The translations under genes were made by a program, and so were the position numbers. From the NCBI GenBank assembly GCA_903789535.1, contig CAIFES010000002.1, positions 62,001 to 126,000 of the forward strand: a stretch of 64,000 bases of DNA. The letters are read 5' to 3'. Shown here piece by piece: positions 53,975-59,508 of the stretch; within the stretch, counting starts at the first letter, position 1, and every line of letters begins with the position of its first letter. The notes beneath the pieces were generated by a model. The model did not search any database. It saw nothing but the letters and a program-made list of their open reading frames with translations, and had not been told where the DNA came from. This DNA is from an uncultured Aeriscardovia sp. Its GTDB lineage: Bacteria; Actinomycetota; Actinomycetes; Actinomycetales; Bifidobacteriaceae.

Positions 53975-53993
53975 TTTTTTTTTTCCCCCCCCC
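53975..53993. repeat. T10C9 double homopolymer upstream of dnaX
   Basis: On the dnaX strand this is G9A10, 166-184 nt before the start codon. Such tracts slip readily and may vary between cells or be misread in assembly. Confidence 0.85.
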
Positions 53994-54052
53994 GGCCAGC
54001 ACGAGCCGGATATGCCATCAAGCTCCGGAATCGGTATCACCCTCAGCCGGGG

Positions 54053-54117: not shown

Positions 54118-54732
54118 TCAAGCCGCGGAGTCGGCTTTGACGCAATCGTCCGGACCGGCACGGGACGCCGTCTGTGTCAGAGCCACGAACGGTCCGGAAC
54201 CCGCGCGGACCGTGACAAGGACGTCGTCACCCTGCACGCGGCAGGAGACGAGCTGCACGGAGGAGCCCCGCGAGACACCGTGCGCCGGAACCCGCCCGTG
54301 CGCCGGAACCCGCGAAGAGGCACTCTGGGAAGTCCGCCAGGACGTGCGCGCGGAGGCGGTGGGAGAGTCAGCGAGCGTGAGGACGTAGGCGGCCTGCTCG
54401 CAGGGCGAGCGACCCGGCAGGAGGCCCAGACGAGCACTCGCAGCCGATAGCGCGGCGATATCGGCCTCCTGCCGGGCCTCGGCGCGCGCCACGACCACCG
54501 ATGCCCCGGCGGACAGCGCACCGAGGAGGGCCGCCGCCAGCAGCACGAGCATCAGGCCCACGATGGTGCCCGAGCCGCGCAGCGCTTTCATGCCGCGGTG
54601 GCCGGTGTCTGCACACGCACCCGCACGGCGTCCACCCCATGAGTCTGTGTAGCCCCGTCCCTTTTCCTGATGCCCCTTCCATCGGCATACGCCGTGCCGG
54701 CACGGGCAGACCTGGAACTTTTCACCGCGCAT
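54118..54732 (-). CDS. tadF: TadF/Rv3654c-like pilus-assembly protein
   Basis: 204 aa from ATG 54732, which overlaps the tadE stop (TGATG) and has a strong AGGAGAG site. The family-like part starts at residue 48 (MKALRGSGTIVGLMLVLLAAALLGALSAG), a membrane segment followed by a secreted TadE/TadG-like region with a pair of Cys. A start at ATG 54591 would give 157 aa and match the family better but has no ribosome-binding site. If 54732 is used, the protein has an unusual Cys/Arg-rich 47-residue N-terminus. Last gene of the pilin-tadE-tadF unit. Confidence 0.7.
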   Translation of the reverse strand: MRGEKFQVCPCRHGVCRWKGHQEKGRGYTDSWGGRRAGACADTGHRGMKALRGSGTIVGLMLVLLAAALLGALSAGASVVVARAEARQEADIAALSAASARLGLLPGRSPCEQAAYVLTLADSPTASARTSWRTSQSASSRVPAHGRVPAHGVSRGSSVQLVSCRVQGDDVLVTVRAGSGPFVALTQTASRAGPDDCVKADSAA

Positions 54733-55295
54733 CACGCTCTCCTATCCGCCTGCCTGAGTGTCATCGTCGCCCCTGTCTGCCGCCACGCCGTCACAGACAG
54801 ATCTGCGGGCAGACCTGGGACAGAGGGGCCCCGGCTTGGCAGCACACCCGGAACGGCCGGATCCGGGTTGGGCGACAGCCCCGGGCCATCCTGCCTGCCG
54901 TGAGACCATGATGCGACGGATGCCCCGGCTTTCGGCGGCATCTCCACAGCGGCCTCGGCGGTGACCGTGGCCGGCAGAATCTGGACGGAACCGGCATGGA
55001 TGGGGCATGACAGGCCCAGCCGCAGGACCCGGCCGGAACGCGTCAGCGCGAGTGTCGAACCGGATGGCGCCAGGCGGAGCACGACGGCACGGGCCGCGCC
55101 TTCCTGCCCGCCGTCAAGCAATGACGGGGTGGACAGGAGGGTGCGGGCCCCGCTCGCCACGGCGTCCTGGCAGGAGACACGCGTCCCGACCGCCGAACCG
55201 AGCCCGAGCAGCAGTGCGATGAGCAGCACCACGACCGGGAGCACGAGCGCGAACTCGGCCGTCACGGCCGCCCTGCGGGGACGCTGGCGTCTCAT
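54732..55295 (-). CDS. tadE: TadE-like minor pilin
   Basis: 187 aa. N-terminal RRAAVTAEFALVLPVVVLLIALLLGLGSAV is a TadE-type membrane segment with the conserved Glu, followed by an extracytoplasmic domain with two Cys. The C-terminal 60 residues are Pro/Gly-rich. Corresponds in position to Rv3655c of mycobacteria. It overlaps the pilin gene by 4 nt and the next gene by 3 nt. Confidence 0.8.
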   Translation of the reverse strand: MRRQRPRRAAVTAEFALVLPVVVLLIALLLGLGSAVGTRVSCQDAVASGARTLLSTPSLLDGGQEGAARAVVLRLAPSGSTLALTRSGRVLRLGLSCPIHAGSVQILPATVTAEAAVEMPPKAGASVASWSHGRQDGPGLSPNPDPAVPGVLPSRGPSVPGLPADLSVTAWRQTGATMTLRQADRRA

Positions 55296-55549
55296 CCGGC
55301 CGCCTTGAGCGCCTTGGTGATGATGGAGGAAAGCTGGCTCTTGACGCTCGCTGATTTGAGCAGCGCCACCAGCACCGCGGCAAAACCGGTCGCAGCGACG
55401 AGCACGATGACGTACTCGGCGGTGATCGCGCCTTTGCGCGGACGGTCAAGGGCCATGCGCGCATTCGTCGTCGCGCGCACGACCAGTCCGTCCGCCTTAT
55501 CGCGCAGATGAGAGAGCCTTTGGGCGATCCTGTTGGTTGCAGTGGTCAT
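55292..55549 (-). CDS. flp: Flp-like major pilin (DUF4244 type)
   Basis: 85 aa. Basic N-terminal half, then KGAITAEYVIVLVAATGFAAVLVALL, the hydrophobic pilin helix with Glu at position 5 after the presumed processing point, and a short tail. Matches DUF4244 (Rv3656c-like), the pilin candidate of actinobacterial tad loci. AGGAAGGA precedes ATG 55549. First gene of its unit, with a 263-nt upstream region containing an 18-bp motif shared with tadZ. Confidence 0.8.
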   Translation of the reverse strand: MTTATNRIAQRLSHLRDKADGLVVRATTNARMALDRPRKGAITAEYVIVLVAATGFAAVLVALLKSASVKSQLSSIITKALKAAG

Positions 55550-55717
55550 GGATAATCCTTCCTGGATATGATCGTCGTCCCGTATCTCGGGGCGACGTCC
55601 CCTGCAGTGACCGTCCGCGGCACTCCTTGCCGTCCCGGTCCTCGGCATCTTCACGGCTTTTCGCCGGTCATCCCCTACTTTCGCAGGCCGCACATGGCCC
55701 CGGAAGCGGAAAACCAC

Positions 55718-55735
55718 ATTGTGGAAAACTGGCGG
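55718..55735 (-). promoter_or_regulatory. 18-bp tad-associated element, copy 1
   Basis: Minus-strand CCGCCAGTTTTCCACAAT, 169 nt upstream of the pilin start. Here CCACAATGTGG adds a short palindrome. The exact same 18 bp occur upstream of tadZ. It contains TTTTCCACA, one mismatch from the DnaA box TTATCCACA. Confidence 0.6.
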
Positions 55736-55812
55736 AATCCATTAAGACCGCCGCATCCCCCTCCCCGCCCGCGATAAGCCAACTGCCTGCACGATGCACT
55801 CCGCAAAACCCC

Positions 55813-56415
55813 TCATGCCAGAGCAAACGAGGCGATGACCGGGATGACGCCGAGGACGACGAGCGCGGGCAGAAAGCACAGTCCCACCGGCAACAGGATG
55901 CGTACGGAAAGTACCGAACCATCACGCGCGAGGCGATCCTCCTCCTGCGAACGCAGATTCCGCGCCGCCTGACGCAGCCGCGGTGCGGCGGCGGTCCCGT
56001 CGTTCCACGAGGGTGCCAGCAGATCGGCGATGATCTCCAGACGTCGGGCCGCAGACGGATCGTCCCCGTTCGCAGCACATCCGGCGCATGCCGCCTTCCA
56101 GGCCATATCCCAGTCGACGCCGCGCAGCAGCAGCCGTGAGACACGCACGAACGCAGTGATTCCTGTCTGCCGTCCCGTCACCTCGAGGGCGCGCGGCACG
56201 GCGACGCCGCCGGCCAGGAGCGCGGCGAGCACGTCCAGAAGCAGGCAGAGATCCTCTTCGTTCCCCGGTACCCCGTTCCTAGGCCGGTCCGGGACAGACG
56301 CCGTGTCGATCACCCGTCCCGGACGGCAGTCATGGCGTGAGGAGCCGGGCGGCAGGAGCAGCAGGCCGAGCAGTCCGGCCAGAACAGTGGTGAGGATGAT
56401 GAGCGTGACCGTCAT
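55813..56415 (-). CDS. tadC: TadC-like inner-membrane platform protein (T2SS F family)
   Basis: 200 aa. One N-terminal membrane segment, a cytoplasmic GspF/TadC-type helical domain (LLLDVLAALLAGGVAVPRALEVTG, LLAPSWNDGTAAAPRLRQAARNLRSQEED) and a C-terminal membrane segment. Partner of TadB in the pilus motor platform. It starts 6 nt after tadB. Confidence 0.8.
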   Translation of the reverse strand: MTVTLIILTTVLAGLLGLLLLPPGSSRHDCRPGRVIDTASVPDRPRNGVPGNEEDLCLLLDVLAALLAGGVAVPRALEVTGRQTGITAFVRVSRLLLRGVDWDMAWKAACAGCAANGDDPSAARRLEIIADLLAPSWNDGTAAAPRLRQAARNLRSQEEDRLARDGSVLSVRILLPVGLCFLPALVVLGVIPVIASFALA

Positions 56416-56421
56416 TATCCT

Positions 56422-57231
56422 TCACCGTTCCTTGCGCTCATAGTCGCGGATGACGCGCCGATACCACAGCACGCCGCAGACGATGAGACCGATGCCGACG
56501 GCGAGGCAGACGAGACCCATCGGCGTGAGCAGGAAACCGACCGGGTCGGCCAGAAGGCTGCCCCCGATGAGCAGCACGGCCGGCAACGCGGTGAGGAGCC
56601 GAATCGTCGTCTGCGGGACGGCGAGCGCGCGCCGTTTCCTGCCGGCGACCGTCCTTTGGTGGGCGTCGGTGGCGATCAGCGCATCAAGCAACGGGACGAG
56701 CGGTGCGCCGCTCTGCCCGCACACGCCGACGGCGAGCGCGAGGCGACCGGCAAGAAGCCGCCTGTCTTCCTGCGTCTCGGACGGGCACAACGCGGAAAGA
56801 CGGAGGGAAAACCATGCTTCCAGATCGTGTGTGTCATGGTCGACAGCCGGGTTCGGCGTCTGCCCGAAGACTGTGGCGAGCGCCGCGGCGGTGGTTCGTC
56901 CGGCTTCCAGCTCGTCGCGCAGCCTGTGCAGGACGGAGGCGGCGTCACGTTCCGCAGACGGGTCGCCCCGCTGGACAAGACGGGCGAGGCGGTTGAGGCG
57001 GTCGGCGAGCACAGGTTGCTCAAAAGCAGGCGTCGCGTGCCTGATCCCGCCGGATGAGGAGGCGCACCCAGGCACGCGCCCGTGCGTATACACGCCCGCG
57101 CCTGCCTGTACCGGCACGGCAGGCAGAACGTGCGCGGCCCGACGGGAAGGATGCGGTATGAGCAGCACCGCGAGCACGACGACGAGCACGCAGAGGCACA
57201 ACAGCACCCTCTGACGGTCAGCATCGGTCAT
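56422..57231 (-). CDS. tadB: TadB-like inner-membrane platform protein (T2SS F family)
   Basis: 269 aa. An N-terminal membrane helix (8-26), a helical F-type domain (VLHRLRDELEAGRTTAAALATVFG, LAVGVCGQSGAPLVPLLDALI) and two C-terminal membrane segments. It overlaps tadA by 4 nt. Confidence 0.8.
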   Translation of the reverse strand: MTDADRQRVLLCLCVLVVVLAVLLIPHPSRRAAHVLPAVPVQAGAGVYTHGRVPGCASSSGGIRHATPAFEQPVLADRLNRLARLVQRGDPSAERDAASVLHRLRDELEAGRTTAAALATVFGQTPNPAVDHDTHDLEAWFSLRLSALCPSETQEDRRLLAGRLALAVGVCGQSGAPLVPLLDALIATDAHQRTVAGRKRRALAVPQTTIRLLTALPAVLLIGGSLLADPVGFLLTPMGLVCLAVGIGLIVCGVLWYRRVIRDYERKER

Positions 57232-58559
57232 CGGATCTCCTTTCCCTGTGATCGATCGGGCTCTTGTGGTCGCCCGGACTCTGCCGCGATGACCGGAAAC
57301 TGCCGGGTCTCATCTGACGCTTTATCTATCAATTGCCACGTCTCATCTGCAAAATCTCCCGTCTCATCCATCGACTGCCCCGTCCCCTCCATCAGCTGCC
57401 GCGTCCCACCCGTCAATTTCTGCATCTCATCTGCCGGGCAGCCTGCGCCGTCTTCTTTCTCCACGTCTGTTCCCGCTCCGCCTATGCCTATTCCGTCTAT
57501 TCCTGCTTCCGGTGCCATTCCCCAACAGCGAATGCCCCAATGCCGGATAAACTCCTGCCAGCCGAGCATCGGGCGCAATCCGGCTGTCGGTGAACAGCGT
57601 GCGAGCACATGGCCGACCGGACCTGCCGGCGAATCCTCCAGCACACCGACCTGTGAGACGAAACGCCGTCCCCCACGCCGCTCGCAGTGGATAACGGCAT
57701 CGAACGCGCCAGACAGCAGCGCCGATGCCTGCCGGCCGTCCATCCCGCCCTGCGCGGCGAGGGCGAGCAGACGGGCAGGCACGCGTGCCACGCCGTCGGC
57801 ATGGAGGGTGAGCATCCCACCGCGGTGACCCGTGTTGAAGGCGCGCAGCACATCGGCGGCCTCCGGTCCGCGACACTCGCCCAGCACGATGCGGTCGGGC
57901 CGCATGCGCAGGCTCGCCTCCACAAGCGCGTCCAGCCCGACGGCGCCCTTTCCCTCGGCATTGGCCGGGCGGGCGGCGAGCGAGACGACGTCCGGGTGGT
58001 CGACGCCTCCCAGCTCGCGCACCTCCTCGATGAGCACGAGCCGGTCGGTCGGATCCGTCTGCCGCAGCAGGGCACGCAGGAGCGTGGTCTTGCCCGTGCC
58101 GGTGCCGCCGGTGAGCAGCAGCGAGGCACGGTGGCGCAAAAGGCCGCGCAACAGTCCGGGCAGGCACGGGTCTGGGAAGAACCCGGCACGTTCCAGGTCA
58201 TCGAGACCAAAATCGGCGGCGGACGGCACGCGCACACTGATCGCCGCGCCCGCGGGCACGAGCGGCGGCAGGAGCGCGTTGAGGCGCAGCCCGGAGGGTG
58301 TGGAGGCGTCCGCCACGGGATGGGCGTCATCCAGCGGAACCCCGAGCTGCGCGCACAGGAACACCGCGAGCCGGCGCACCGCCCGCGCATCGTCCAGGGG
58401 GATGGTGAGGCTGCGGCGATGCATTCCTTCTCCCGTGTCCGCCCAGACGCTGCCGTCGGGGTCGACCGCGATATCGGTCAGGCCGGGCAGATGCAGCAGC
58501 GGGGAGAGTGGGCCGAGGCTGAGGCCGTCGGATATACCAGACGATTCCGCGCCGCGCAT
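57228..58559 (-). CDS. tadA: TadA/CpaF-family pilus assembly ATPase
   Basis: 443 aa from ATG 58559, which overlaps the tadZ stop (TGATG). Walker A GGTGTGKT at about 151-158, Asp-box-like LIEEVRELGG, the Arg-rich RMRPDRIVLGECRGPEA segment (Walker B) and His box GHRGGMLTLHADG. Powers pilus assembly at the cytoplasmic face. The last ~90 residues are a repeat-like Glu/Thr/Asp/Met-rich tail (MEGTGQSMDETGDFADETW) that TadA proteins usually lack. Confidence 0.9.
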   Translation of the reverse strand: MRGAESSGISDGLSLGPLSPLLHLPGLTDIAVDPDGSVWADTGEGMHRRSLTIPLDDARAVRRLAVFLCAQLGVPLDDAHPVADASTPSGLRLNALLPPLVPAGAAISVRVPSAADFGLDDLERAGFFPDPCLPGLLRGLLRHRASLLLTGGTGTGKTTLLRALLRQTDPTDRLVLIEEVRELGGVDHPDVVSLAARPANAEGKGAVGLDALVEASLRMRPDRIVLGECRGPEAADVLRAFNTGHRGGMLTLHADGVARVPARLLALAAQGGMDGRQASALLSGAFDAVIHCERRGGRRFVSQVGVLEDSPAGPVGHVLARCSPTAGLRPMLGWQEFIRHWGIRCWGMAPEAGIDGIGIGGAGTDVEKEDGAGCPADEMQKLTGGTRQLMEGTGQSMDETGDFADETWQLIDKASDETRQFPVIAAESGRPQEPDRSQGKEIR

Positions 58560-59443
58560 CACGCGCCTCCAGCCGGGCAGGCCGCCGCCCGCCGCACCAG
58601 CCGGTCGCACAGACGCAGGAGGCCGCGCGGCACCTGCCATAAACCCACTCCGGCCTCGATCTGGTCGGTCAGACGCGGGAAACGACGGTACCGTCCGATG
58701 ACCGGCACGCCGAGCGCATCGGCGATCTGCCCGTCATCCGGCGCGGGCGACGACCACCCCGGGACGACCGGGCCGATGCGGGAAACGACCGTGGCAATTC
58801 TCGCCCCCGGCAGGGCGCGGCGGCAGTCTTCCGCCAGCATCCGTCCGGCGGCGAGCGCGGCCAGGCAGGGCGCGGTGAGCAGGAGCACCGTCACCGCCCC
58901 GTCCTGCGCCTGCCCGCAGGAGTGCCCGAGAAAATGCGCAAGGCGGTCAGGAAGCCGGGTGCCCTGCCCTGCATCGATCACGAGCGGGCCGGGCAGGCCC
59001 ATCAGGGCGTCGAACACCGCGTCCTGCTCCCACGGTCGGGGCGCATGCCCGGACCACGGTCTTCCGGCAAGGACCCGCACACCGTCCGCCGCGGGCAGCC
59101 GCGCCGCGAGCGTGGTGGCGTCGACGACGCCGAGCGGGGCGCGGATATCCTGCCAGCGCAGCCCCGGCTCCTCCTCCAGTCCGAGGATCATGTCCAGACC
59201 ACCGCGGTCCGGATCCGCCCCGACGAGCGTCACACCGGCCTGCCCGCCCGAGCGTGCGGCCTGACACGCCAGCAGCGCGGCGAGCGTGCTCGTGCCGACT
59301 CCTCCCGCCGTGCCGACGACCACGAGGACGGGTTCCGTCCTGCGTGGGGTCGGCGGACGGCCGTTGTCGGGAGTATCAGGGTCGATTCCCGGCTCCTCGG
59401 CCGCAGGCAGCAGGCGCTGTGAGTAATCACTGATCGTTCTCAT
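58559..59443 (-). CDS. tadZ: TadZ/CpaE-like ParA-family ATPase
   Basis: 294 aa. A deviant Walker A (GTAGGVGTSTLAALLA) lies after a ~40-residue N-terminus. GADPDRGGLDMILGLE and IDAGQG follow as in septum-site/TadZ-like ATPases (Rv3660c position). It probably localises the pilus machine. ATG 59443 is preceded by a GGGGGC stretch, a weak ribosome-binding site. First gene of the tadZ-A-B-C unit. Confidence 0.82.
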   Translation of the reverse strand: MRTISDYSQRLLPAAEEPGIDPDTPDNGRPPTPRRTEPVLVVVGTAGGVGTSTLAALLACQAARSGGQAGVTLVGADPDRGGLDMILGLEEEPGLRWQDIRAPLGVVDATTLAARLPAADGVRVLAGRPWSGHAPRPWEQDAVFDALMGLPGPLVIDAGQGTRLPDRLAHFLGHSCGQAQDGAVTVLLLTAPCLAALAAGRMLAEDCRRALPGARIATVVSRIGPVVPGWSSPAPDDGQIADALGVPVIGRYRRFPRLTDQIEAGVGLWQVPRGLLRLCDRLVRRAAACPAGGA

Positions 59444-59490
59444 GCCCCCAGCCTCAAACAGAGCAGAAGCCAATTGAAGACGACGGCCCG

Positions 59491-59508
59491 ATTGTGGAAA
59501 ACTGGCGG
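59491..59508 (-). promoter_or_regulatory. 18-bp tad-associated element, copy 2
   Basis: Minus-strand CCGCCAGTTTTCCACAAT, 48 nt upstream of the tadZ start and identical to the copy upstream of the pilin gene, in the same orientation relative to the gene. Confidence 0.6.

Follow-up and report, generated by a model that had tools for sequence, protein, structure and literature searches.

In Bacillus and Streptococcus, one short cis-element, the ComK box or the cin-box of ComX (SigX), heads dispersed competence operons. The gene sets of both regulons include comEA-EC, dprA, recA, radA, ssb and pilus genes, and the cin-box of ComX/SigX promoters, TACGAATA, is located at the -10. In the actinobacterium Micrococcus luteus, tad, tadV, comEA/EC and a SAF/RcpC gene are required for transformation, and actinobacterial tadV lies apart from the tad genes (PMC4322843, PMC8467076). 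An HTH_17 gene affects com expression in M. luteus, where a promoter element or activator is not described; according to a 2026 study, the upstream signals and the regulatory cascade of its competence still await identification (PMC12849477). The literature searched, in which subscription papers and preprints are thinly covered, yielded no com element or activator of actinobacteria, and a search by the letters of the element presented here gave DnaA or unrelated papers. Such a competence control element seems not to have been described before in actinobacteria.

Here, we report on an 18-mer, CCGCCAGTTTTCCACAAT, of an Aeriscardovia genome, which we consider likely to serve as the binding site for the activator of a regulon for natural competence and recombination and, as part of the same reading, as an actinobacterial analogue of the Firmicutes com boxes. 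As in the ComK and ComX systems, one short element heads dispersed operons. It differs from them in sequence, in the pilus, which is of the Tad/Flp type, and in the combination of an upstream activator-type site with a sigma-A-like -10 instead of a sigma-X promoter. In the aligned core sites of the element, the -10 reads NANNNT and no further cin-box bases are conserved. With M. luteus competence the system shares the Tad pilus, comEA/EC and, presumably, a distant tadV and SAF/RcpC gene.

Two copies of the 18-mer in the tad region

The window, i.e., the whole stretch of 64,000 nt that was analysed, has a G+C content of 65%. It carries two exact copies of CCGCCAGTTTTCCACAAT on the minus strand, at 55735-55718 and 59508-59491, and no further site with up to 3 mismatches. 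Just as the original prediction had it, the copies lie upstream of both tad units and are oriented alike relative to each. It also held a chance origin to be unlikely, and none of 100 dinucleotide shuffles gave two matches. The region comprises the following features.

59491..59508, minus strand: predicted promoter element CCGCCAGTTTTCCACAAT upstream of tadZABC; exact match, among the 35 genomic core sites
59450..59455, minus strand: -10-like hexamer GAGGCT, starting 35 nt after the tadZ element
58559..59443, minus strand: tadZ/cpaE-like ATPase (NCBIfam TIGR03815, E 3.7e-28, under the curated cut-off)
57228..58561, minus strand: tadA-like secretion ATPase with Walker A GGTGTGKTT, assigned by translation without profile check; start codon uncertain
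56422..57231, minus strand: presumed tadB, by position and translation only
55813..56415, minus strand: presumed tadC, by position and translation only
55718..55735, minus strand: predicted promoter element CCGCCAGTTTTCCACAAT upstream of the pilin unit; exact match
55677..55682, minus strand: -10-like hexamer GAAAGT, starting 35 nt after the pilin element
55292..55549, minus strand: Flp-type pilin, DUF4244 (PF14029, E 2.4e-17)
54732..55295, minus strand: tadE-like pseudopilin (PF07811, E 4.8e-8)
54118..54735, minus strand: presumed tadF/TadG-like pseudopilin, by position and translation only

The ATG of tadZ is found 47 nt after the element and 12 nt after the start of the -10-like hexamer, and the tadZ transcript is probably leaderless. 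The pilin ATG is located approximately 170 nt downstream of its element; this gene is leadered, and AGGAAGG precedes the ATG. Both -10-like hexamers of the window begin with G instead of T and are thus weak matches to TANNNT. Apart from the tad genes, the upstream region of dnaX (53975-53994) shows about 9 consecutive T and then about 10 C, a possible slippage or assembly site.

Promoter arrangement and genes under the element

Genome-wide, CCGCCAGTTTTCCACAAT has 4 exact copies, and 25 sites lie within 3 mismatches, compared to 1 for the reversed-pattern control. The two exact copies outside the window are located upstream of comEA-comEC and of NAD kinase (ppnK)-recN. The idea that the repeat is placed at just the two tad sites is thus correct for the window and fails for the genome. 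The core [AG]GTTWTCCACAWT occurs 35 times, and TTWTCCACA has 73 matches versus 9 for its reverse. The genome was covered by pattern searches and by stretches around the sites, which may overlook less common variants of the element.

The core sites exhibit a common arrangement. At 14 of the 35, a TANNNT starts 34/35 nt downstream, while other two-offset windows reach a mean of 0.09 and a maximum of 1; for the relaxed hexamer NANNNT the number rises to 26 (other windows: mean 2.3, maximum 7). An ATG follows at exactly +47 from the element in 10 of the 35 cases. Genome-wide, the combined pattern TCCACAWT-N34/35-TANNNT matches 18 times and its reverse not once, and the aligned core sites show a conserved CGCC flank at the promoter copies. 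Because the -10-like hexamer and the ATG recur at these distances, we read the 18-mer as an element of promoters, many of them apparently leaderless, in which it covers about -64 to -47; this placing takes the first base of the ATG as the transcription start. Such a position would suit an activator site and not a -35. A processing signal, which had been suggested as well, is unlikely given the constant distance to the -10-like hexamer. One regulator for pilin and machine genes, in turn, gains support from both tad copies sitting in this genome-wide arrangement.

Gene identities in the Aeriscardovia genome were assigned by Pfam and NCBIfam profiles. The genes found under the element are listed below, by profile match unless stated otherwise.

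comEA, then comEC (PF03772) and a DNA polymerase III delta-like gene
UPF0102 (yraN), comM and dprA
recA and recX
RadA-like protein (radA)
SSB (ssb)
NAD kinase (ppnK) and a RecN-like gene
xseA and xseB
two UvrD-like helicases
tadZ/cpaE, and DUF4244 pilin with TadE protein, i.e., both tad operons
SAF/CpaB-like protein adjoining mscL, a candidate distant tad gene (weak match, under the cut-off)
candidate TadV, a multi-pass protein containing GDGD and matching Peptidase_A24 weakly (E 0.45)
WXG100 protein, FtsK/EccC-like ATPase, M23 peptidase and lipase-like proteins

Five of about 8 core competence operons carry the element (hypergeometric p ~1e-5, a rough value, as operon and set numbers are estimated). 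In bulk, this gene set looks like a natural-competence and recombination regulon. A late-competence regulon is expected to have a shared cis-element at a fixed promoter position and to have it upstream of both uptake and recombination operons; both properties are found here. Many copies elsewhere in the genome had been named beforehand as a refuting observation, and such copies exist. They are found largely at genes for DNA uptake and recombination, so tad is a single branch of a wider regulon, and the proposal of a tad-specific factor is not supported. Approximately one third of the sites precede genes without an evident link to DNA uptake, i.e., gcvH, ftsY, glycogen phosphorylase (glgP), an aldo-keto reductase and a HAD hydrolase, and the regulon may thus extend beyond DNA uptake. 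Among the scanned unknown proteins under the element, profiles detected no DNA-binding domain that would mark a candidate regulator.

Several further observations concern these loci. Box-like sites with TANNNT at about equal spacing precede the genes of two membrane peptides (G000:C2, ~172.0k and ~218.8k) that resemble each other, have about 50 residues and could be signalling or bacteriocin-like peptides. Type VII secretion genes recur under the element: WXG100 and FtsK/EccC-like genes in this genome, FtsK/EccC-like in other Aeriscardovia and WXG100 in another actinobacterial family. DNA uptake may be coupled to type VII secretion. A LexA-like box, TCGAACAGATGTTCT, is located between the element and the start of NAD kinase-recN (G000:C5, ~17.7k). 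Finally, a 223-residue protein under the element (L244:306-974, plus strand), which precedes another long gene, has no significant Pfam match.

Conservation at comEA and recA

Within the Bifidobacteriaceae, the core is found upstream of comEA in Aeriscardovia, Scardovia, Alloscardovia, B. gallicum and others; in many of the Bifidobacterium species examined, no recognisable box is present at comEA. In several genera of the family, recA is preceded by a TTNTYCACA box with a TANNNT 35-37 nt further on; in some genomes (G017, G047), inspection showed the recA copy GACCACATT, which TANNNT follows at 35 nt. Of the 33 family genomes with comEA, 17 have the recA box, as against none of the 8 without or with only weak comEA, counts that come from phylogenetically non-independent and partly incomplete genomes. 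Further copies of the core in other Aeriscardovia stand before genes for a UvrD-like helicase and an FtsK/EccC-like ATPase; an SSB gene of another genus has the core as well, without the -10 spacing. The 15-mer and 16-mer versions are rare in relatives, i.e., conservation is confined to the shorter core.

Outside the family, comEA of Kribbella carries TTNTCCACA with a TANNNT 35 nt on in all 5 regions that have the box. Actinomadura shows the same arrangement, and two Streptomyces have a tandem copy of the box with a spacing of 36. In other families of the class, 87 regions upstream of comEA gave 16 sites with TANNNT at 36-38; no other offset accounts for more than 3 sites, and the opposite-strand control gave 1. 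In several actinobacterial families, the comEA regions examined hold no recognisable box. The pattern TTGTCCACA-N38-40-TANNNT, searched in 108 genomes, precedes recA at six loci (two profile-checked) and comEA at two (one profile-checked), and also recQ, a WXG100 gene and several DUF222(-HNH) genes. The latter span several actinobacterial families, and some have a PafBC -26 element. In distantly related actinobacteria, too, versions of the box thus precede the same uptake and recombination genes. The element with its spacing and orientation, the gene set under it and the conservation at comEA and recA are all read directly from the genomes.

Candidate readers of the element and biological meaning

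From these patterns we infer an activating role of the element and competence of the cells. In the proposed mechanism, an activator would bind CGCCAGTTWTCCACAWT at about -64 to -47, directly upstream of the would-be -35, and aid sigma-A RNA polymerase at promoters with a -10-like hexamer 34-35 nt on. Transcription would often begin at the ATG, and the Tad/Flp DNA-uptake pilus, ComEA/ComEC, DprA/ComM, RecA, RadA, SSB, RecN and others would be co-produced.

As to the regulator, DnaA is the leading named candidate, and a tentative one. This is a special case of the activator reading: the boxes would be DnaA boxes, and DnaA as transcription activator would couple the state of chromosome replication to competence and recombination genes. 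Some dedicated competence activator other than DnaA is about as likely. The core TTNTYCACA equals a DnaA box and varies at positions 3 and 5 only, where DnaA tolerates change. It matches the relaxed E. coli box, TTWTNCACA; the original prediction had placed the core one base away from a DnaA box, and TTTTCCACA in fact fits the relaxed form outright. High-GC lineages mostly show TTGTCCACA, the DnaA box of Streptomyces and Mycobacterium, and Bifidobacteriaceae TTATCCACA or TTTTCCACA. One box adjoins dnaA. Proteins with the DnaA DNA-binding domain (DnaA_C) number one per genome, so a DnaA paralogue as regulator was rejected.

The promoter boxes differ, however, from ordinary DnaA boxes by their fixed orientation and distance to the -10, their extra conserved flanks and their third base. 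In the Aeriscardovia genome, clustered origin-type boxes are mostly TTATCCACA and promoter boxes mostly TTTTCCACA; at position 3, the former have 10 A and 4 T and the latter 7 A and 19 T (Fisher p 0.009, small numbers). The WT tail is absent from most clustered boxes, the -10 spacing is seen at none of them, and the CGCC flank is conserved at the promoter boxes. A base and flank preference as in origin-type boxes, a weak expectation of our own setting that relies on small numbers, was therefore not found. Moreover, comEA-poor relatives lack recA boxes despite having DnaA. The far-reaching version, in which DnaA would directly activate competence and recombination genes across much of Actinomycetota and thus tie DNA uptake to the replication cycle via one ancient promoter element, is somewhat more doubtful still.

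The box might also be an auxiliary upstream element of PafBC DNA-damage promoters. PafBC (RecA/LexA-independent) promoters have common targets such as recA, and both elements co-occur in other Actinomycetes: in 26 of the 92 TTGTCCACA-N38-40-TANNNT matches, including recA, TGTC precedes the -10 by exactly 16 nt, as it does in a PafBC -26 element. In other lineages, the box is thus combined with the DNA-damage promoter. The -26 element is located 8 nt from the -10, whereas the box is about 34-40 nt away. The -26 element is, moreover, absent from comEA promoters and from most promoters of the Aeriscardovia genome; TTGTCRGTG 8 nt before TANNNT is not a shared feature there, as no position between element and -10 is conserved. 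Of the two PafBC subunits, PafB is the one that binds the -26 motif, and PafC makes the contact to sigma (PMC11804915); this leaves no reader for an upstream site, so a protein other than PafBC should read the box. With few -26 elements at box promoters here and the roles of PafB and PafC taken, we judge PafBC an improbable reader.

Equally improbable is a general upstream promoter element of the species without a coordinated regulon. Housekeeping genes such as ftsY, gcvH and glgP are indeed among the targets, but the sites number only about 35, are strongly concentrated on uptake and recombination genes, and recur at the same genes in distant genera. Direct repeats flank tadZABC, which could also point to a regulator site dedicated to tad or to a mobile tad segment bounded by the repeats; we reject both readings in view of the copies at unrelated loci, many of them in a promoter position.

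Competence control in Actinomycetota is an open question, and an activator site of a competence and recombination regulon offers a defined promoter element that lists its genes. The element could serve as bait for finding the regulator. It predicts natural transformation with a Tad pilus in Aeriscardovia and relatives. As bifidobacteria are hard to transform, natural transformability would be of practical use.
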